Below, piece after piece: positions 15,618-60,285 of a DNA stretch of 64,000 nt (positions are counted from its first letter, which is position 1; each line of letters starts with the position of its first letter). The notes below the pieces were generated by a model. That model was not told the DNA's origin, searched no databases, and saw only the letters and a program-made list of their open reading frames with translations. The stretch is from assembly GCF_027943255.1 (NCBI RefSeq), contig NC_072896.1, positions 118,699,879 to 118,763,878 on the forward strand, read 5' to 3'. Made by a program: the position numbers and the translations under genes. The DNA comes from Anastrepha obliqua (Eukaryota > Arthropoda > Insecta > Diptera > Tephritidae).

Positions 15618-16899
15618 TGGACGTTGAATTAGTTTTAAAGGTTTTTTTCGAAGATTTGGGGCTTTATTGTGAAAAAACGGTACAAAATATTTTATTCGAA
15701 GTATTCGCCATCACTAGCTACAACTTTCGCCCATCTTTCGGGCAATTTCCATATGCCGTTTCTCCAAAATTCTGGCCGCTGCTTGGCTATCCATGACTCA
15801 ACCCATATTTTGGTAGCCTCGTACGAGGAGAACCGCTGGTCCGCCAAATCGAGACTCATATGCCGGAACAAATGATAATTGGAGGAAGCTATGTCTGGAC
15901 TATGCGGGTGGGGTAAACTTCCCAGCCAAGCGTTCCAAGGTATTTTTTGACAGGTTGAGCAGCATGCGGCCGAGCGTTGTCATGTTGCAAAATAACCTTG
16001 TCGTGCCTTTTTACCGTTTCCGGCCGTTTTTCTTTCAATGCCCGGCTTAAGCGCATCAATTGCAGTCGGTAACGATCCCCCGTGATTGTTTCGTCCGGTT
16101 GGAGCAGCTCAAAATATACGACGCCGACCTGATCCCACCAAATGCAGAGCATGATTTTCTTGCCGTGAATATTCTGCTTGGCCGTCGACGTTGATGCGTG
16201 GCCGGGCAAACCCCATGATTTTTTGCGTTTTGGGTTATCGTAGTGGATCCATTTTTCGTCGCCAGCCACCACCCGATGCAAAAAACCCTTCCGATTTTGT
16301 CGCTCGATCAGCAATTCGCACGTAAAAAATCGCCGTTCGACGTCGCGCAGCTTCAACTCGTACGGGACCCAATGTCCTTGTTTTTGGATCATTCCCATCG
16401 CTTTTAGACGCTTGCAAACGGTTGATTTATCAACGCCCAATGATTCAGCAAGCTCGTCTTGGGTTTGGCACGAGTCCTCGTTTACCAATTCCCCCAATTC
16501 CGCGTCCTCGAACTTTTTGGGCTGGCCAAGACGCTCCTTGTCTTCGGTGTGAAAATCACCACTTTTGAATCGTCGAAACCAGTACTCACATGTTGAAATC
16601 GACGGAGTATGGTCTGGGTAGGCCTCCTGCAGCAATTCACGGGCTTGGGCTGTATTTTTTTTTTTTTCAAATTGAAGCAGAAAAGCAAAGCTTCCCGCAA
16701 ATTGCGTTTCGACGGCACGAAAGTTGACATACTCGGAGCACGAAAACACTGCGTTGTTTATACTTCAGCGGAATGACAGATACTGATAAACAAAGCCTAG
16801 GGATGAGGCTTTGTCATGAATATATATTCAGTATTGCCAACGCGATAAAGTGATAAATAGCGCCATCTGTGTGTCACCTTTAAAACTAATTCAACCTCC
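15618..16899 (-). mobile_element. Near-complete mariner element
   Basis: Both ends carry 'GTTGAATTAGTTTTAAAGGT' as inverted repeats (15623-15642 and its complement around 16876-16895), identical over 20 bases. TA lies just outside on both sides (15616-15617; 16900-16901). The length of about 1.28 kb is normal for mariner. Inside is one minus-strand transposase frame broken by two frameshifts. It is the most complete element of the window, and its well-matched ends suggest it is one of the younger ones. Confidence 0.9.
15692..16730 (-). pseudogene. Mariner transposase (DD34D type), two frameshifts and a lost catalytic residue
   Basis: The transposase would cut and join the element ends in the nucleus. 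The natural start is the ATG at 16730 ('MSTFVPSK'). That frame is lost at an A-run (T-run on +, about 16651-16665) and continues in the frame that reads 'EYWFRRFKSGDF', 'WVPYEL' (the mariner WVPHEL box with Tyr for His), 'VAGDEKW' with the first catalytic Asp, and 'LQHDNARPH' with the second. A further one-base shift near 15915 moves into the frame reading 'SPDIASSNYHLF' and on to TAA at 15692. The residue at the third catalytic position, Asp in 'PSDYHLF' of Mos1-like enzymes, is Asn here. Even without the shifts the enzyme would be inactive. The total of about 345 residues is the family norm. Confidence 0.9.
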
Positions 16900-20079: not shown

Positions 20080-21100
20080 AGTAGTAAATCGTTCGTCATT
20101 CATCATTATATTCAGTACTGAAGGGACCAGTACGCGTTTTTCTGTGCTGAAAAAACGTTTTCAAATACTACTTGAAAATTTTAAAGCTACTTTAGAAAAC
20201 TTGACTGTTTATGTATGAGACCGATATTTATAGCAGTGCCTTCTAATAAATAGCGATTTTAATGAGTGATATACTGGATAGCAAAATATTTCTACGAATC
20301 CTCAGCATCGCTCTTTGATATTTGTTTATTTATCTATTACTAAATTTTCAAAATTTTCATGAACTTCCTTTTTTTAAATAAAATTATTTGCTTCAGTATT
20401 TTTTACTTGAATATTGATTTGGAAATATTATATGATTTGTAGTGAACCATATGAAGATCGTGGGAATCTTCTTCTTCTTCATGGGAATCCATATTTATAA
20501 ACACAGTTGTTTCCTTTTTTGTTAAAACTTGGCGCAAAAGCGCACGAACGGATTACAACCAAATTTGAAAAGTATATTCCTAAGGCCCTGTGCAAGAACA
20601 TAGGACATATTTTAATACGCTAGGTGGCGCTGATTGATTTCGGTGAAGTTAAAAACTTATGCTGCAAGTGAGATTAGAAATACGAGTATTTTTACGAAAA
20701 CTGGATCATCTTTACAGTCAAAATATTTACTCTCCGAAATATTCGCGAATTATATTTTTAGCTTCCGATTTTTTTTACATAGAATATTTTGTGACATTCT
20801 TTAAGAAATACCGTTAATGCGGTTCATTTAACCCTTAGGAGCATGGTGGGAAGCCAGGTTCCCACCTTCTTTTTTCTCAACTTTTCTCTACAGATTTGAT
20901 ATTTATGAAAATGGGACCGAGAAAATTTATTTATATGATAATCCATATATCAAAGAATGTAACTGAAACTAAGAAAATTGTTTTGCGTGAATTTATAAAC
21001 AATTACAGATAAACAAATTGAAAAAATCGTCTATTTTCAGGAAAAAATTCATTTTTCAACAAAGTACATAATGTATAAAGATGGGACATGATACTATAAG
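20080..21100. other. No gene recognised
   Basis: At 20530-20650 there are words ('aaagcgcacgaacggatt', 'aggtggcgctg') of the kind seen in the non-coding 5' parts of insect Helitrons, and the Helitron at 32.6 kb has a similar 'aggtggcgctgccg'. That is too little to call an element. The rest is plain AT-rich DNA. Confidence 0.35.
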
Positions 21101-21417
21101 GTTTTTGGGGTTGCTGATTACGAATCTGAGGTCAGATTTGAGAAATTCAATATGGCGGATACAAAATGGCGGACATATTTTTTGAAAACTTGTTGGATAC
21201 TCACCAAGTTTGATATTAGGGAGTTTTTGGGGTCGCTGATTACGAATTTTGGGTCAGATTTGAAAAATTCAAAATGGCGGATACAAAATGGCGGACATAT
21301 TTTTTGAAAACTTGTTGGATACCAAAAACTCCCTAATATCAAACTTGGTGAGTATCCGCCATATTGAATTTCTCAAATCTGACCTCAGATTCGTAATCAG
21401 CGACCCCTGAAACCCTT
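21101..21417. repeat. Tandem plus inverted (foldback) repeat
   Basis: A unit beginning 'gtttttgggg' and including 'gctgattacgaat', 'aaaatggcggacatattttt' and 'gaaaacttgttggatac' occurs at 21101 and again at 21223, a 122-base period. From about 21323 the sequence runs back as the complement of the same unit ('ctccctaatatcaaacttgg' to 'attcgtaatcagcgacccc'), nearly to the unit start. The inverted arm is about 95 bases and close to perfect, so this single strand could fold into a long hairpin. No protein is encoded. Confidence 0.85.
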
Positions 21418-27993: not shown

Positions 27994-29215
27994 CGAGCTG
28001 TGTTCAAAAAGTATCGCGAATTTTGAATTTTCACAGGTTATGTAAGTATATTCAATTTTTTTGGCGATATGTTGGTACTCATGTCTCTCACTTATGCCGA
28101 CGAGTTCAGCTATTTTGAATGTTCAGTTAATTGTTGACAGCTGTTTTGCTTGCACGTATTTCGGCTCGTCTTCGATTTTTACCTATTCAAGAAGATGGAT
28201 CAAAGAACCTGTATCAAATTGTGTGTGAAAAACGAAATTATGTGCGCGGATGCATTCCGAATGTTGAATGTGTCATACGGAGAAGCTATAGTACTTTGCA
28301 CTAAAGCAACGTTTATCGGTGGTACGAAATGTTCTCAGAAGGCTGAGAAGATGTGAACGACGAAAAGCATGCCGGACGCCCGAGCACTTCAACAACACAC
28401 GAAAAAATTGATGAAGTGAAGAAAATGGTATTGGCCAATCGTCGATTCACCGTTAGAAAAGTTGTTGAGGTCATTTCGTGCCATTCGATTTTTTTCAATG
28501 ATTTGGGCATGAGACGGGTCGCCGCAAAATTTGTACCAAAACTGCTCAATTTCGAACAAAAGCAGCATCGCATGAACATTGCTAATGAGATGTTGGACTC
28601 TGTGCGCGACGACCCAAATTTGCTCCAGATGGTCATAGCTGGTGACGAATCGTGGGCTTATGCGTATGACGTGGAAACCAAAGCTCAAACATCTCAATGG
28701 AAGCTGCCGCACAAACCAAGAGCGAAAAAAGCGCGTCAAGTCAAGAATGTAAAAGTTTTGTTTACCGTTTCCTTCGATTGCAGGGGCGTTGTGCATCATG
28801 AGTTCTTGCCACAGAGTAAAACGTTCAATAAGGAATATTACCTGCAAGTTATGCGCAATTTGCGCGGATCAATCCGCCAGAAATGCCCGGATTTGTGGAA
28901 GAACAAAACTTGGATCCTGCATCACGATAACGCCCCTGCTCACACATCGTTGCTTGTGCGCGACTTTTTGGCCAAAAACAACACACTGATGATGCCACAG
29001 CGACCGTATTCCCCAGATCTGGCCCCCCTGTGACTTTTTCTTGTTCCCGAAACTAAAGAGGCCCATGAAAAGACGCTACGCTACGATTGACGAGATAAAG
29101 ACGGCATCGAAGGAGGAGCTGAACAAGATAAAAAAAAAAATTATTTTTTGAAGTTCTGAAGATGGAAAAAAACGTTGGCACAAGTGTTCTTACTCTTTCT
29201 GAATATTCTTATAAA
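27994..29215 (+). mobile_element. Second mariner element, right end missing
   Basis: The left end 'cgagctgtgttcaaaaagta' follows TA at 27992-27993 and has the look of a mariner inverted repeat. No complement of it is found to the right of the transposase, so the right end is lost. Just past the remains, at 29279, TA is followed by 'cgaggtggttcaataagttt', a similar but different mariner-type end in the same orientation. That may be the left end of a further truncated element. Confidence 0.7.
28194..29149 (+). pseudogene. Mariner transposase (DD34D type), several frameshifts
   Basis: The start is ATG 28194 ('MDQRTCIKLCVKNEI'), the N-terminal helix-turn-helix side. The frame is broken around 28290-28350, where the second helix-turn-helix lead-in is damaged. 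It recovers as 'AGRPSTSTTHEKIDEVKKMV' and runs open for about 220 codons with 'VIAGDESW' (first Asp, residue 98 of that frame) and 'LHHDNAPAH' (second Asp, residue 192). At 29027-29035 an extra C in a C-run converts the expected reading of 'PDLAP.DFF' into a TGA stop. The third Asp is present in the shifted frame, giving the 34-residue spacing. A further disruption at an A-run near 29130 removes the C-terminus. It is not functional, but its residues are well kept. Confidence 0.85.
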
Positions 29216-33685: not shown

Positions 33686-34744
33686 CACGTAATTGTATGG
33701 GATGAGTGCACGATGGCACATAAAAAGTCACTGGAAGCGCTTGATAGGACATTACGAGATTTACGTAGTAAAAATGAAATGTTTGGTCGTGCCTTAGTGC
33801 TGCTGGCAGGTGATTTTAGACAAACACTGCCTGTTATTCCTCGAGCAACTGCAGCAGATGAATTGGTTGCATGTTTGAAATCATCATATTTGTGGAGAAA
33901 TGTTCAAACACTCAAACTAACTACAAATGTACATGTTCTAATGCAAAATGGTCCATCAGCTGCTGAATTTTCACAGCAATTATTGGATATTGGAAATGGC
34001 AAAGTTCCTGTCGATAATTTAACTGGCTTAATAACTTTACAACCAAACTTTTGTCAAATAAGTCAAACGAAAGAACAGTTAATTCAAAGTATTTTCCCAA
34101 ATTTGCCTCAAAATTACAAAAGACATGATTGGCTTAGTGAACGAGCCATCATGGCTGGCAAAAATAAAGATGTGAATGAAATGAATGCGGCTATTTTGGC
34201 TAACATACCACGTCCAGAACAAATATATCGATCCGTTGACACTGTTACAAATCAAGATGATATTGTAAATTATCCCACTGAACTTTTGATTTCCCTTGAT
34301 TTACCTGGATTACCGCCACACATGCTAAACTTGAAAATAGGAGCACCGATTATTATGTTGAGAAACATAAATCAACCACGACTATGTAATGGCACTCGAT
34401 TAACAGTTAAGAGATTGATGAATAACGTCATTGAAGCAACAATTTTGAATGGAAAATACTCTGGTGAAGACGTTTTAATACCGCGAATACCAATGGTACC
34501 ATCGGATATGCCGTTTAAATTCAAACGTCTTCAATTTCCTGTTCGCCTTTCATTCGAGATTACTAGTAATAAGTCACAAGGCCAAACTTTATCAATTTGT
34601 GGTATTGATTTCGAATACCCATGTTTTTCTCATGGCCAACCTTATATTTCATGCTCAAGAGTTGGTAAGCCATTGGTATTGTTCATTTATTCAGCAACGC
34701 ATGGAAAAACAAAGAATATTGTACACCGAAGAGCATTACAATAA
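33686..34744 (+). pseudogene. Helitron PIF1-type helicase, C-terminal half
   Basis: In frame with the ATG at 33713, upstream codons give 'VIVWDECTMAHKKSLEAL', so the Walker B (DE) motif lies just before the first ATG. After it come motif III ('LAGDFRQTLPVIPR'), the conserved 'WLSERAIMAGKN' block, 'LKIGAPIIMLRNINQ', 'RLCNGTRLTVKRL', and the motif VI region 'FEITSNKSQGQTLSICGIDF' with 'YISCSRV'. These are in the order of PIF1-like helicases of Helitrons. The frame is open for about 350 codons to a natural stop at 34742-34744. The Walker A motif and everything N-terminal to it are absent, so the protein cannot hydrolyse ATP. The long open frame suggests recent loss or a fairly young copy. Confidence 0.85.
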
Positions 34745-35274: not shown

Positions 35275-35635
35275 CAGGGTTGGCCATATTAAACTGACCC
35301 ATTGAGTAACCCTATAACTTTTTACTGTAATTTGAAATCTAAGGCTTACGTCAACAAGCCAAAGACACTAGGCGCACTTAAGGCCAATATCCGACGGGAA
35401 ATAGCCGCCCTATCGGCCGAGACGCTGGCCAAAACTATGGAAAACGCCGAAAAAGGGGGCACATTACGCTATACGAGCTAAGGGCGACCACTTGCGCGAT
35501 ATCATATTCAAAAAGTGATGTAAACGAATCTCCTTGAACTAAATTAAATGTTTTTCACAATGAAACACAAAAAAATGTTTCTTTTTCCATATTTTTTTAA
35601 TAATCACATGGGTCAGTTTAAGATGGCCAACCCTG
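35275..35635 (+). mobile_element. Short TA-flanked inverted-repeat element
   Basis: The left end 'cagggttggccatattaaac' continues 'tgacccat'. The right end is its near-perfect complement ('atgggtcagttta', two changed bases, 'tggccaaccctg'). TA lies on both sides (35273-35274; 35636-35637). The 361 bases hold only the last part of a transposase frame. It is a deletion derivative that keeps about 28 bases of inverted ends. Confidence 0.85.
35344..35520 (+). pseudogene. Tc1/mariner-type transposase C-terminal fragment
   Basis: The frame reads 'YVNKPKTLGALKANIRREI', 'ALSAETLAKTMENAEK', then shifts by insertion within a G-run and, after a stop in the first frame, can be followed as 'RAKGDHLRDIIFKK' to TGA just before the right inverted repeat. 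This is the usual helical C-terminus after the catalytic domain. No catalytic residues remain. Confidence 0.65.
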
Positions 35636-35651
35636 TACATATCCAAATACG

Positions 35652-35811
35652 TGCTAAGGGCGACCACTTGCGCGATATCATATTCAAAAAGTGATGTAAA
35701 CGAATCTCCTTGAACTAAATTAAATGTTTTTCACAATGAAACACAAAAAAATGTTTCTTTTTCCATATTTTTTTAATAATCACATGGGTCAGTTTAATAT
35801 GGCCAACCCTG
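35652..35811 (+). repeat. Tandem second copy of the element's right end
   Basis: From 'gtgctaagggcgaccacttg' to 'ggccaaccctg' this repeats 35480-35635 almost base for base, including the right inverted repeat. It has no left end. Its near identity to the first copy means the duplication is recent. Confidence 0.85.
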
Positions 35812-48690: not shown

Positions 48691-48696
48691 ACTTAA

Positions 48697-49397
48697 GGGG
48701 GGACTCTACTGTAAAACTTAAAAAAAATCGATTTTTTACTTTTTGTTGAAACATACTCAGAAACAACTCCAGAATGTTCCATGAAAATCTTAAAAAGAAA
48801 TCTTGAATAGTTTTCAAGTTATAAAAGTTTTAGCAAAGCAGGTATAAACTGAGCGCTCGAGCGGTTTACGGTCATATGCGTGTTTTTCTCGAAACCACGT
48901 TTTCAAAATTGCCCACATCACAGCTCCGTGAAAAATTAACATATCAAGCTCAAACTTTGATAGTATATTTTTAACAATATTTACTAGTTTTTAAAGCTAT
49001 GGTGGGAAAAAATTTATTATTTATAACCCCTTTTTTAATAACAAAATGACAACAAAAAAATGTCGATTTTTTAAAAAACTTCAAAAATTTTACAAAAAAA
49101 TTTTTTTTTTGCAAGTAATAGGCTTAACAACTAAAAATAATGATATATAATAAAAAAAATTTGGTTTTTTTCATTTCAGATTTTTTTTAAATGCGCGACA
49201 GTGTGGGCAGATTTCAAAAGGCGTTTCGGGGGAGCGGCTGTACAGCTGCCATTTTGAAATGAAAATAAATTAAAAAAATTTTTTTGTACACTCAAGACCT
49301 GTGTTTATGTAACCCTAAACTTTTTTTTACTAAATAAATTAATACAAGTATGAAAACAAAATCCATAAAAATTTGATTTTTACAGTAGAATCCCCCC
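48697..49397. mobile_element. TTAA-flanked inverted-repeat element, copy 1
   Basis: The left end 'GGGGGGACTCTACTGTAAAA' and the right end (complement) 'GGGGGGATTCTACTGTAAAA' match at 19 of 20 positions. TTAA lies directly outside at 48693-48696 and 49398-49401. The 701 bases inside are AT-rich and have no transposase. TTAA duplication is the habit of piggyBac-type transposases, so this is probably a non-autonomous element of that superfamily. The six-G terminus is unlike the usual CCC ends of piggyBac. Confidence 0.75.
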
Positions 49398-49401
49398 TTA
49401 A

Positions 49402-53204: not shown

Positions 53205-54155
53205 AATTACTCCAATTGAGGCTTGTGCAAACAGTTGTTGTTCAGACAGCAACGAAGTAACATAAACGGAGACTGTGTAGATTTCTTTGTACCATCAACA
53301 CAATCTCATGTAATGACACTGTAATTACCCCAGTTACATTAGCCAATCAACTGATTCCTTTAAGGGGGAGGTAGGGTTTAGCGCTAAAAAAAAAACACTT
53401 TTTTTGTGAATTTTTTACAGAAATATGGCTTAAGATACTTTAATAAAATCAGTTACATGTTATTGTACATCTTTTCAATAAGTTTTTAAAAAATATTAAT
53501 AATAAAATATTGACAAATAAGCCCATGACAGAGTTTTTTTGGAGATATGTTTTTCGAGAGGTGCTCTGCGGTGCCAATCGGCATTCGTCGTAGAATCATC
53601 TGAAACTAAAAAAGTCGAATTTTTCAGTTAAAGTATGACGTAATGCTCCCCCCTACATTAATAAAATTTTTTTTTTTTTCATTTTTGTAGTTTTGGTGGC
53701 AAAAAAACGTAAAACGAGCATTTTTGGCGAAAAATTTCGCCATATTTGTAAGTGAAAAACAACCTTAAAAAACAAAAAAATAAAAAAAAACAGTGTAGGG
53801 GGGAGGTATTTTTGATTTAGAAAACGTGTGCCAAATTTGAAAAGAATCGGTTGAATAGTTTCGGAGTTGTGATTGGCACCGACTTTTAAGAAGTCGTTTC
53901 GGGAAAAACGCGTTTGAAAAAATGACTCTGAGAAATTATCGATGCTCCGCATTCGAGGTAGAGTGCCTACAAAGGCTATAACTTTGAGAGTTCTGCTCCG
54001 ATCCACTTAAAATTTTGACACAACATTCTTGAAATGATTTACTATAAGATGAGTGAAGAAAAAAAATTTCGATTTTGTGACCCTACCCCCCCCTTAAAAT
54101 TGCTGAGAGTCGGTTAACGGTCTGATGTTAGTCATACCGCTGCATTCTGTACCTC
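53205..54155 (+). repeat. Dispersed repeat 'R53', copy a, split by a TTAA element
   Basis: Left part (53220-53363): 'ttgttgttcagacagcaacg', 'aagtaacataaacggagact', 'aacacaatctca', 'attagccaatcaactgattc'. Right part (54098-54155): 'ttgctgagagtcggttaacg', 'gtctgatgttagtcatacc'. The same words run on without a break at 57370-57548, so the 730-base TTAA element between them is an insertion. Confidence 0.8.
53364..54093. mobile_element. TTAA-flanked inverted-repeat element, copy 2
   Basis: Ends are GGGGGAGGTAGGGT on the left and GGGGGGGGTAGGGT on the complement of the right (13 of 14 equal), with TTAA at 53360-53363 and 54094-54097. Length is 730 bases. It is AT-rich inside and has no long open frame. 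It differs from copy 1 in the sequence after the G-run, so the two are sister families rather than copies of one. It sits in a repeat whose unfilled version is at 57.5 kb. Confidence 0.8.
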
Positions 54156-55944: not shown

Positions 55945-56170
55945 GCAGGGATGATAGATTACCAGGTTCCGTCATCCGCTATGGTAAACAACAAAATTGG
56001 GAGAGTTACTTCAGCTGCCACATTATCGCGGACTCGGCAGCACTCGTCCAATCAGTGTTTATTCCTTTCGTATGTGACTAACACAATCTCAGCTACGTCT
56101 GTTGCGTCAGCCAATGAGCTGCATCTTTCAAATTCGCTGAGAGCCGGTTAACGGTCTGATCTTGGTCACA
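55945..56170 (+). repeat. Dispersed repeat 'R53', copy b
   Basis: It begins 'gatgatagattaccaggttc', has 'agttacttcagctgccac', 'cactcgtccaatcagtg', 'aacacaatctcagct', 'gtcagccaatgagctg', and ends 'gctgagagccggttaacggt'. A 66-codon frame inside it ends in '..NSLRAG', and copy e has a similar frame end ('NPLRAG'). This follows from shared DNA and is not evidence of a protein. Confidence 0.8.
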
Positions 56171-56484
56171 ACTACAAGACTTTTTTCAACAAGGAGAGCT
56201 AGCAGAACTACTTCTGTGACAGTAACATCGGAGAGAGAAACTCTCGAAAACAAATGAAAAAAAAAAATAGATTAGATGCTTCAGACTATAACGCACTGGA
56301 TGGGCGGGTTAATGTTTAGCTGCTAGCATTTTTAAGACACAGAAAACCTGAAAAAAGCACTTCATTCGAAAATTTTCCGATAAGTAACACTGAGAATGAC
56401 AAAAAACAAAATTAAAATACCAGAAATTTCTCTTAAGACAAGAAATTTCTACTTTCTAAAATACTCTCTTCACTTCGGGAACTA

Positions 56485-57040
56485 AAGGGTTTTTTCAGTA
56501 ACAGATGTTACAGGTGAGTGGATTTCGCTATCGAGAGATGATTAACGATTTTTTATGGCCGGAATTGGATGGTATTGATCTGGTCAACGTTTATTTTCAA
56601 ACAAGATGGCGCTACGTGCCACACAAGCAACGAAGCCATTGATCTTTTACGTGAAAAGTTTCCGGACCGTGTTATCTCTCGAAGAGGTGATCACAATTGG
56701 CCACCGAGGTCTTGTGATTTAACACCTTGTGACTTTTTTCTTTGGGGCTACGGGAAAGAGAAGGTCTACGCCAACATCACAGGGTCGATTCAAGACGATT
56801 CAAAGATGGAAATCGTGGGGCTATCGAGGACAAAGGGCAGCAACTTTCCAATTCCGTTGTGGAAAATTTCATGAAAAGGATATTGTCTTGTAAGCGTGGT
56901 TGGTGGTCATTCGCCTGATGTTATTTTCCACTATGAACGGCATACCTTCCTCTTTGTAATAAAATAAACATCAGATCATTTATATTAAAAAGTAGCATTT
57001 TTCTTTGAATATCAAAATAACACCTCTTATTGGAAAACCC
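56485..57040 (+). mobile_element. DD41D (rosa-like) mariner remnant
   Basis: The left end 'AAGGGTTTTTTCAGTAACAG' with 'ATGTTA' after TA (56483-56484), and the right end on the complement 'GGGTTTTCCAATAAGAGGTG' with 'TTATTTTG' after TA (57041-57042), are related inverted repeats. The 556 bases keep the second half of the catalytic domain only. The element lies between copies b and c of repeat R53. Confidence 0.7.
56569..56878 (+). pseudogene. Mariner-like transposase fragment with DD41D spacing
   Basis: The frame has 'FKQDGATCHTSNEAIDLL' (second Asp at residue 13), 'FPDRVISRRGDHNWPPRS', 'CDLTPCDFFLWGYGKEKVYA' (third Asp at residue 55). Forty-one residues lie between the two acids. This spacing is that of the DD41D group, first described for the rosa element of Ceratitis. 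After 'NITGSIQ' the frame decays; in another frame 'VVENFMKRI'-like coding is seen at about 56860-56880. The first catalytic Asp and the DNA-binding region are deleted. Confidence 0.8.
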
Positions 57041-57125
57041 TATACTAAATAACGGTCTCAGAAGAACTAAAAACCGAGCTGGGCTTTTTAAACGTATGCT
57101 AAATTTGGACGCACAGAACACACAC

Positions 57126-57205
57126 AGCCAATAATGATAGATTACAAGATTTGAACATCCGAAGCAGAATTGTAAGAGTAACTTTGGCTTTTACGTAATC
57201 GGATA
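57126..57205 (+). repeat. Dispersed repeat 'R53', partial left end
   Basis: 'aatgatagattacaagattt', then 'gcagaattgtaagagtaact' and 'ttggctttta' match the first 80 bases of copy c, which starts about 120 bases further on. Confidence 0.6.
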
Positions 57206-57245
57206 CTTTACAGCACTTTTTTCACTAGTATCCTCATGCTCCCAG

Positions 57246-57548
57246 GATGCTAGATTACCAGATTTGGACAACCTGCTATGGTGAAAAACAAAATTGTATG
57301 AGTAACTTCGGCTGCCATGTCAACGCGTACGCGGCAACAGAATTCTGCCAGCTCATTCCACACACTCGTCCAATCAGTCGTTGTTCAGATGGCAACGAAG
57401 TAACATAAACGGAGGCTGTGTAGATTTTTTCACAATCTCAGTTTTTTTGTAAACAAATCGCTATCACGACTCGTGTGACGTTAGCCAATCAGCTGATTCT
57501 TTAAAATTCGCTGAGAGCTGGTTAACGGTCTGATCTTGGTTACACCTT
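57246..57548 (+). repeat. Dispersed repeat 'R53', copy c (reference copy)
   Basis: From 'gatgctagattaccagattt' through 'taacttcggctgccatg', 'cgtccaatcagtcgttgttc', 'aagtaacataaacggaggct', 'acaatctcagtttttttgta', 'acgttagccaatcagctgat' and 'tctttaaaattcgctgagag' to 'ggttaacggtctgatcttgg'. Here the TTAA in 'tctTTAAaatt' occurs once: this is the unfilled form of the site that carries the 730-base element in copy a. Confidence 0.85.
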
Positions 57549-57559
57549 CTGATTTATTT

Positions 57560-59680
57560 CCACAATGAATTCTTCCAACCAGTCGTTGTTCACATGACAG
57601 CGAAGTGGGCAAAGGCTGCGTTGGATTATTCCTACATGGCCAGTTTTTGCCGGCCGCTGTCATATGAGTTTAAAAATTCGCGTGCTGCTTCTTTTTTCTT
57701 AATAGGGCAAACATAGTGTGACTGCACACAAAAATTTAGTAAACCAGGGGGTTTGCCATAATCTTTACCCCTCTTGATAAAAATCGTGAGCAAAAAATAA
57801 GGAAAGGTTTTTGACCTTTTCGGCTACATATGCAGATTTCGGAAATGAGTGCAAAACTGAAGAATGAGTTGGAAAAACGGAAAACATTAAGGGCAAACAA
57901 CAACAAAAATGAAATATATTTCGGCTTTTTATTTGGCAAATGACAAAAAATAAATTATGCAATTAATAAAAAAAGAAAGAAAACCTCAAATACAAAAAAT
58001 GGCAAGCACAAAAATGGCGCACAGCAGGATAGCCGTGCAAACTTCTTGCATACCAAAAGGAAAGTTCCTAACTTAGTTTTAGCACGCAGGTCTCCTGGGA
58101 AGTTTATTGCTTCAAACACCATTTTTCGTGCCACCAATTTTTATTTGGAGTTTAAGGAGTAATGGGACCAGTAATATTTGCATGCAAGGATGAAATTTTC
58201 TACTTTTTAATTCTATATTCGGAATTTAGGTGTTTGGTAGGTGAGTAACTGCAGGCACCACTAAAACTTTTTATCGCCAAATGACGCATTTCGTGTTGAT
58301 GTGGGCGAGAGTTTTCTTTTTGGTGAAACAAAAAAGACGGAGTGTTTGCAGAGGAGTCATTAGGGTGCCTGTTAACTTTACGATTCTTCCGAGTTGGTGT
58401 TCCTGTGTGATGATTTTGGAGCCTTATCTTGGTACTAAACAACCAAGTACCAAGAGAAATGGGCAAGCAGCAGCCTGGCTAAAAGAATCGGTGATTCTAA
58501 GGGCATAGTGGAACTTTACCCAGCGCAGTCTAACGCATAACTGTACATCAATGTCACACAAATGAACGAAAATGAAGCACAGAAACCTCCTAAAATGATT
58601 TATTTCCTACTGTTATAATTACAACAAAAAATGCAATACGACGACAGTTAAAACTCAACGAACCGCAGCAGTGTGCGTGTGAGTGCATTCAGCTTGACAG
58701 CTGAGAGCGGTAGTGCAACCGCAGTGGCATGTGGAAAGTGGCATGAGTAGCGGTATGATAAAACAGTATATGCCCGCACGCAATAAAATTAAAACAAAAA
58801 AACTAATTTAGTGAAAATAAAAACCCAAATGTAAAACAAAAGAATTGAAAAAAAGATTGATTAAAGCAGAAAAACAGAAAGATGCCTGCTGACAAAAAAG
58901 CGCACGTGGAAACATTTTGCTGCAACTTTGCAGCAACACAAACACGGTGGCTCAGAGGATTCACGCTTTGACACGCACGCACATGCAGCAATCAACTTAC
59001 AATGCAATGCTTTACCACCAACACCAAATGCAGCAACTGGCAAGTGGCATTTAAGGTGTTTTAATGCGAGTGCCCTAAAGCCCCTTTTGAGAGGCGCTCA
59101 TTTAACGGGTCGACAATTGTTGACGACGTCGGTGTTGGATGAGTGGTTGGTTACACGTGCGTTGACACATTTTTCCACACAAACACCGCTGAATACTGAG
59201 GCGAACTTAGCTGCGAAACTCGACTGCAAGCCCAAATAGTAAAGAGACTAAGAATGTGTTTTGTAATGTGGGCAGAGAGTGGAATTTTCTTTATTTAGAT
59301 TTTTCTGTAAAATGGCGGCTTTCTGAACACGTTCACAACGCTTTATGGGTAAAGAACTTCGTTGACAGCGCTTGCTTTGGTTGTTGGGTAGCTTAAAGGT
59401 CTGCGCTTTTTGTTTTATTTCGGCTTTACAACACTTTCGTCTTTTCCCCCGATTATTTCTCACACTCTTTTGCGCACACGTGCATCACTACGTCCAAGGC
59501 GCGTACGCATGAAGTTCTAAATTATGGTGAGTTCTATAGCCTGAACTAAATAAATAACCAAAAGCGTTTAGCATGCAGAGTGGAAGCGCCAGTTTATCTT
59601 AGCAGCTATTCCTACGCGTAAGCACCCTCAATTTCTTTGCTCCTCTCTTGGTAGGCACAAAGAGGCCTTCACGCAACACG
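57560..59680. other. No gene recognised
   Basis: A further fragment of repeat R53 at 57570-57620 ('cttccaaccagtcgttgttc') is the only assignable piece. The remainder is unassigned. Frames at 58200-59240 overlap on both strands and have no domain. Confidence 0.4.
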
Positions 59681-59689
59681 GCGATGAAA

Positions 59690-60055
59690 AATAAAGAAAA
59701 TTGTGAGAGAAACTTCGGCTGCTCCGTCACCAGGTACTCGTCAGCAGAATTCTGCGCACTCATTTCAAGGATGATAGATTAACTACATTTGCTCTTTAAC
59801 TATGGGGAAAAAGAATATTGTGAGGGGAACTTTGACTGCCCCGTAACTTGAGAGATTCGGCATTCTGCCCACTCATTTCACATGTATTCACACACTCGTC
59901 CAATCAGTCGTTGTTCAGACGGCAACGAACTATCATTGGTTGATTTTTGTGTTGACATCAGCAACACAATCTCAGCTTTTTTGTAAACACATCCCATGTG
60001 AGGTCAGCCCATCAGCTGATTCTTTCTAATTCGCTGAGAGCCAATCTGATACATC
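59690..60055 (+). repeat. Dispersed repeat 'R53', copy d with a partial lead-in
   Basis: A partial left piece at 59690-59765 ('aacttcggctgctccgtcac', 'cagcagaattctgcgcactc') precedes a longer copy: 'gatgatagattaactaca', 'cacactcgtccaatcagtcg', 'gttcagacggcaacgaact', 'cagcccatcagctgattctt', 'attcgctgagagccaatc'. It is truncated at the end compared with copy c. Confidence 0.75.
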
Positions 60056-60077
60056 TTCTCATTTTTTTTAACCATGA

Positions 60078-60285
60078 ATTCTTCCAACTAATCATTGCTC
60101 AGACATCAATGAAGTATTATGAACAGAGGCTGTGCTGTGTTGATTTTTTTTCATGTATCACCAACACAATCTCAGTTTTTTGTAAACAAAACGCTGTCAT
60201 GACCCCTGTGACGTTAGCCAATCAGCTGAGTCTTGCAAATCCGCTGAGAGCTGGTTAACGGTCTAAACTTGACCACACCTCTTTT
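60078..60285 (+). repeat. Dispersed repeat 'R53', copy e
   Basis: 'caactaatcattgctcagac', 'aacagaggctgtgctg', 'aacacaatctcagttttttg', 'gtgacgttagccaatcagct', 'atccgctgagagctggttaa'. It is the right half of the family and lies head-to-tail with copy d. Confidence 0.75.

Follow-up and report, generated by a model that had tools for sequence, protein, structure and literature searches.

According to the extract of PMC9587614 on which we rely, transposons of the Kolobok superfamily create TTAA target-site duplications and have termini of the form 5'-RR...YY-3', and by these termini they are unlike piggyBac elements, the ends of which carry the motif CC[C/T]T (extract of PMC2872659). T2-MITE ends are described as AGGRR, and one full Xenopus Kolobok element has the left end AGGGGAACTATCATGA (PMC6004289, in extract). 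The authors describing KolobokP state, in the extracted part of their paper, that they found none in arthropods (PMC9587614), and the excerpted account of the iMITEdb database lists Kolobok, piggyBac and Sola3 MITE families across 98 insect genomes (PMC5199201). Among the matches listed for insect or tephritid Kolobok or TTAA MITEs in the open-licence literature (titles and beginnings of abstracts), none describes the family reported here, and six end-like strings had no occurrence in that literature.

The first-pass annotation of the window, i.e. of the whole stretch of 64,000 nucleotides analysed in this work, had described at 53360..54097 a 730-base segment with TTAA on each side and without coding sequence. 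The coordinates proved to be exact, and the termini of the segment, which we call element A, are identical at 13 of 14 positions (GGGGGAGGTAGGGT vs. GGGGGGGGTAGGGT). Its outer features are:

53364..54093, + strand: element A, 730 bp, non-coding (from ends, ORF content and genome copies)
53360..53363, no strand: left target-site copy TTAA (from the window and copies elsewhere)
54094..54097, no strand: right target-site copy TTAA (from the window and copies elsewhere)
53364..53377, + strand: left terminal inverted repeat GGGGGAGGTAGGGT (from end comparison)
54080..54093, - strand: right terminal inverted repeat, GGGGGGGGTAGGGT on the - strand (from end comparison)

The longest listed ORF within element A is 117 aa long; it had no Pfam match, and none of the three candidates returned by a protein search was at E<=0.1, in line with the claimed lack of coding sequence. 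An Rfam search of the window gave no match, and a viral sequence collection scanned for the ends and an inner motif of element A gave 0 matches. Being short, non-coding and of uniform length, with inverted ends and many copies, element A has the properties of a MITE-like element.

Of 22,459 TTAA pairs of the window lying 100-4,000 bp apart four have inverted ends matching at 13 of 14 positions, two of them A/T-rich, the others being element A and a second element, B (48693-49401 from TTAA to TTAA, see below). Sixty dinucleotide shuffles of the window yielded, in total, one such TTAA pair with at least 5 G+C. The control words AATT, ATAT and TATA gave 1, 2 and 0 comparable inverted pairs, respectively, in the real window, and the AATT and ATAT pairs stem from other inverted repeats. 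Because such control pairs exist, inverted ends per se are not specific to TTAA in the window, and the case for TTAA rests on the copies found in the genome.

Some other repeats and frames of the window may be mentioned here. Positions 21100-21414 hold what is perhaps another small element, an inverted repeat whose 63-nt arms are 95% complementary and separated by 189 nt, and positions 35286-35800 hold ATAT-flanked inverted ends, TAAACTGACCCATT/TAAACTGACCCATG, matching at 13 of 14 positions. Mariner-type frames with a PF01359 transposase domain lie at 15889-16749 (- strand) and 28353-29033 (+ strand). A frame for a PIF1-type helicase (33713-34744, + strand) is, we presume, perhaps a Helitron remnant.

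The genome (836,466,488 bases in 204 contigs) was searched with a query of 738 bases, which included the flanking TTAA, and the best 40 of 1,390 first-look candidates were scored; the figure of 1,390 should not be read as a copy number, and element A has at least 40 copies. The best 40 of the 1,390 matches were all 99-100% identical and spread over 7 contigs; 37 of them covered query positions 1-738, the other three 1-733 or 1-734. Substitution from the majority consensus of the 40 copies was 0.45% on average and 1.24% at most, and zero in three copies. As the query contained TTAA and only the best 40 matches were scored, intact ends were favoured and older or damaged copies are under-represented, thus youth and TTAA flanks were partly selected for. 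A 200-kb sample of contig C1 had no BLAST match to element A.

The flanks were analysed in 39 fetched copies, the window copy being excluded. In all 39 TTAA stands immediately 5' of GGGGG, and all 39 have GG...CC termini. The right-hand TTAA is at the reference end in 30 copies and slightly further out in nine, in eight of these after additional C and in L047 after a G and further C. When the length of the C-run at the right end is allowed for, the check for copies without TTAA flanks, proposed in the first-pass annotation, found none among these 39 copies, which are the best-scoring ones for a TTAA-bearing query. The flanking sequences differ between the loci, and no position beyond the TTAA is strongly constrained (38 copies parsed; L045, also TTAA-flanked, was not among them).

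The window holds both an occupied and an unoccupied version of the insertion site:

53222..53363, + strand: host repeat, left of the insertion (from repeat comparison)
54094..54138, + strand: host repeat, right of the insertion (from repeat comparison)
57501..57504, no strand: TTAA, present once, at the paralogous site without insertion (from alignment to the occupied copy)

In the repeat copy at 57.5 kb the sequence is GATTCTTTAAAATTCGCTGAG, with a single TTAA at the insertion point and without the segment, just as had been claimed for an empty site in the same window. The occupied copy reads GATTCCTTTAA, then the element, then TTAAAATTGCTGAG, and differs from the 57.5-kb copy by one additional C on the left and one C fewer on the right. 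When the segment is removed from the occupied copy and both TTAA are left in place, its alignment with the 57.5-kb copy has 146 matches, 23 mismatches and 31 gap positions; the 57.5-kb copy is not an allele but a diverged paralog. It is the only one of the four segment-free copies of the host repeat with TTAA at the insertion point, the other three having TTCA, TTCT and TGCA. Several diverged copies of this repeat lie within 55949-60280 of the window. The doubled TTAA of the window copy and of 39/39 others, together with the single TTAA at 57.5 kb, confirms insertion at TTAA with duplication of TTAA.

Unoccupied relatives were also found for other loci. We joined 38 flank pairs by one TTAA and compared them with the window, the 200-kb sample of C1 and loci L001-L008; six of the 38 spanned an unoccupied relative. 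The joined flanks of L020 align to theirs with 265 matches, 8 mismatches and 0 gaps, the relative having ATAA. L041, L011 and L046 have diverged unoccupied relatives without an exact TTAA. The joined flanks of L010 and L012 match one identical place in the C1 sample, which bears TTAA. In these two loci element A seems to have entered two copies of family C (described below), or of a close relative, at one and the same TTAA and in opposite orientation to it, and the insertions are therefore most likely independent.

The segment is present in only one of the window copies of the host repeat, and this would also be seen if it were an ordinary part of that repeat, lost from the other copies, rather than a transposon. 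Such an explanation, which has next to no probability, is already refuted by 39 further copies with different flanks, exact ends and TTAA, and by the unoccupied relatives of other loci. Element A is a young, high-copy, MITE-like non-coding element with TTAA insertion.

Self-comparison of element A revealed two inner words, each with an inverted partner:

53569..53579, + strand: inner inverted word CGGTGCCAATC, collinear with the ends, partner 53871-53881
53871..53881, - strand: partner of 53569-53579
53646..53657, + strand: inner inverted word CTCCCCCCTACA, partner 53794-53805
53794..53805, - strand: partner of 53646-53657

The order of CGGTGCCAATC and CTCCCCCCTACA is identical, and their spacing nearly identical, in both halves of the element. 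The single-strand DNA folds of elements A and B were both better than those of shuffled sequences (z -4.3 and -4.2, respectively; 20 shuffles each). When the arms were aligned with the ends included, the left and right arms of A scored 51 (maximum of 200 shuffles, 43) and B against itself 75 (maximum of 200 shuffles, 58). In a global test of the inner arms of A, with the ends excluded, the score of 10 was not above the shuffles (maximum 30), a local test of the arms with the ends only equalled the best shuffle (33 and 33), and the best strict self-match of B comprised the terminal 26 nt only. The inner words and the folds suggest that element A may be an old, decayed, imperfect palindrome. We also considered a dimer with two units of ~300 bp in direct orientation, and rejected it since the inner words match in inverted orientation.

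Element B, which is non-coding and has G-run ends, belongs to a related family:

48697..49397, + strand: element B, 701 bp, ends GGGGGGACTCTACTGTAAAA / GGGGGGATTCTACTGTAAAA, TTAA at 48693-48696 and 49398-49401
53862..53912, + strand: inner stretch of element A matching inverted B, ~181-232 bp from the right end (from alignment with shuffles)
48879..48928, - strand: inner stretch of element B matching A, ~182-232 bp from the left end (from alignment with shuffles)

The interior of A aligned to the inverted interior of B with a score of 197, reached by none of 200 shuffles (maximum 160), whereas in direct orientation the score was not above the shuffles (reached by 53 of 200). The matching inner stretches sit at nearly equal distances from an end. 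A further B copy, at C1:60006241-60007307, is likewise flanked by TTAA at either end and contains ~380 bp of other sequence. A third G-ended family, C, was found at positions 1331-2703 of L005, where TTAA, GGGCCTAGGGGTAGTCAGA...TCTGACTACCCCTAACCCC and TTAA follow each other and a copy of A is inserted within. The string TTAAGGGGACAGATACCTGTAAA, from position 1497 of L049 onwards, is a possible left end of yet another family (D) with marginal kinship to A and B. Family B occurred once in the 200-kb sample of C1, and so did a possible D end.

Six of nine arm tests (200 shuffles each), the two already given among them, beat every shuffle. The right arm of A against the left arm of B scored 71 (shuffle maximum 51), the left piece of C against the right arm of A 73 (shuffle maximum 39), and the left piece of C against B and the second piece of C against A were both above all 200 shuffles. 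The comparison of the second piece of C with B failed (44 of 200 shuffles reached the score), and those of the possible family D with A and with B were marginal and failed as well (8 and 3 of 200 shuffles, respectively). The alignments are consistent with descent of A, B and C from one ancestral element.

Which transposase could move element A? Its TTAA target-site duplication (39/39 other fetched copies and the unoccupied sites) and its GG...CC termini (39 fetched copies) agree with both features given for Kolobok; elements A, B and C all fit TTAA with RR...YY, and none fits CC[C/T]T. The first-pass annotation did say that the G-run ends make the family worth naming; TTAA together with RR...YY matches the Kolobok rule as worded in the extract of PMC9587614. 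In our opinion element A is probably a young, high-copy, non-autonomous (MITE-like) DNA transposon served by an enzyme of the Kolobok superfamily, an assignment that we draw from end polarity. The G-run inverted ends would be recognised in trans by a transposase supplied from another place in the genome, by this polarity presumably a Kolobok enzyme, which would move the element by cut-and-paste; insertion into TTAA would then leave TTAA doubled.

The use of TTAA had been read in the first-pass annotation as a pointer to a piggyBac-like transposase, and the TTAA target-site duplication of element A is indeed what such an enzyme would leave. A piggyBac transposase might move element A in either of two ways, element A being a deletion product of an unsampled G-first piggyBac or a substrate of cross-mobilisation, the latter being possible because piggyBac transposases are abundant in this genome. 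Their domain, PF13843, is extremely common here (the best 116 of 5,732 candidates were scored; 0 in 14 control genomes); many of the loci lie in open frames with a length of 450-600 aa or above, and several at different places have equal scores. We surveyed 900-1,000 bp on each side of the domain in 13 of the 116 scored loci, choosing the ends by judgement. They were judged resolved in seven loci, all C-first: CCCGGCGAG, CCCTTARCC (two loci), CCGTTWGAG, CCCTAGAACGG, CWCGTTGAG and CTCTTTCAG, the last being a weak match (9/14); the other six had no convincing ends. None of the seven loci with resolved ends, in this survey of 13 of 116 scored loci, combined a coding piggyBac with the ends of element A. 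As element A starts with GGGGG rather than with CC[C/T] or, as in these seven loci, with C, its ends lend no support to the piggyBac pointer, and we regard a piggyBac enzyme as an unlikely partner.

Several TTAA pairs were passed over in this survey: the outer pair of F2, which is AC-first (13/14) and was taken for another element around the piggyBac, an AGG-first pair at F8 (10/14), an A-rich pair at F1b (10/14), and further weaker or A-rich pairs at F5, F6 and F11. Shared ends were sought for groups F1 and F3 (two copies each, grouped by frame length and score) without success: their flanks failed to align, which makes the grouping doubtful, and apart from the weak F3b match no ends came from it. 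It is a separate observation that the many open frames and the equal scores at separate places, e.g. C6:57803008-57804093, make recent piggyBac activity likely. Another one concerns L070 and L071 (C4:25554954-25557794), where a piggyBac copy is apparently nested in a TTAA-flanked element with ends ACTAGGGGTGGGA, against the purine-purine rule.

Element A could also belong to another TTAA superfamily or to an undescribed group of TTAA transposases. Sola3, for example, has TTAA as its target. Sola3 is among the insect MITE superfamilies of iMITEdb (extract of PMC5199201), and A, B and C are tied to no transposase so far; the Kolobok rule of RR...YY with TTAA, as given in the extract of PMC9587614, is however already satisfied, and we find this explanation quite improbable. 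An even more speculative idea, to which we give slight credence, is that A, B and C, perhaps with D at L049:1497, are palindromic G-ended TTAA families whose shared inner words lie at fixed distances from the ends and would be putative binding sites of one TTAA transposase, very recently active in this genome and neither a canonical piggyBac nor a described Kolobok.

Element A shows cleanly how a non-coding TTAA element has recently spread to high copy number, with ends that do not suit the TTAA transposase so common in the genome. If its partner is, as we think probable, a Kolobok enzyme, an active Kolobok system in this animal would become directly testable; if it is one of the abundant piggyBac enzymes, these would recognise ends less strictly than the usual rule has it. 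By itself TTAA can mislead towards piggyBac, and element A shows why end polarity should be checked.

It is useful to compare element A with the systems described previously, as they appear in the extracts cited. The MITE superfamilies of iMITEdb can be likened to it by listing (PMC5199201). The coral CMITEs, which are piggyBac MITEs, resemble element A in TTAA duplication, in inverted ends of 13-14 bp, in being non-coding and in having a locus seen both occupied and empty, and differ from it in starting with CCC and being ~100 bp long, vs. the GGGGG start and 730 bp of element A (PMC2872659). T2-MITE and other Xenopus Kolobok elements share with element A the TTAA target, non-coding members and purine ends; T2-MITE starts with AG instead of GGGGG, and the two are likened by description (PMC6004289). 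KolobokP is unlike element A in that its terminal repeats are long and direct and that it has coding members, yet like element A it has ends that are purine-first and pyrimidine-last, and end-like words recur in its interior (PMC9587614).
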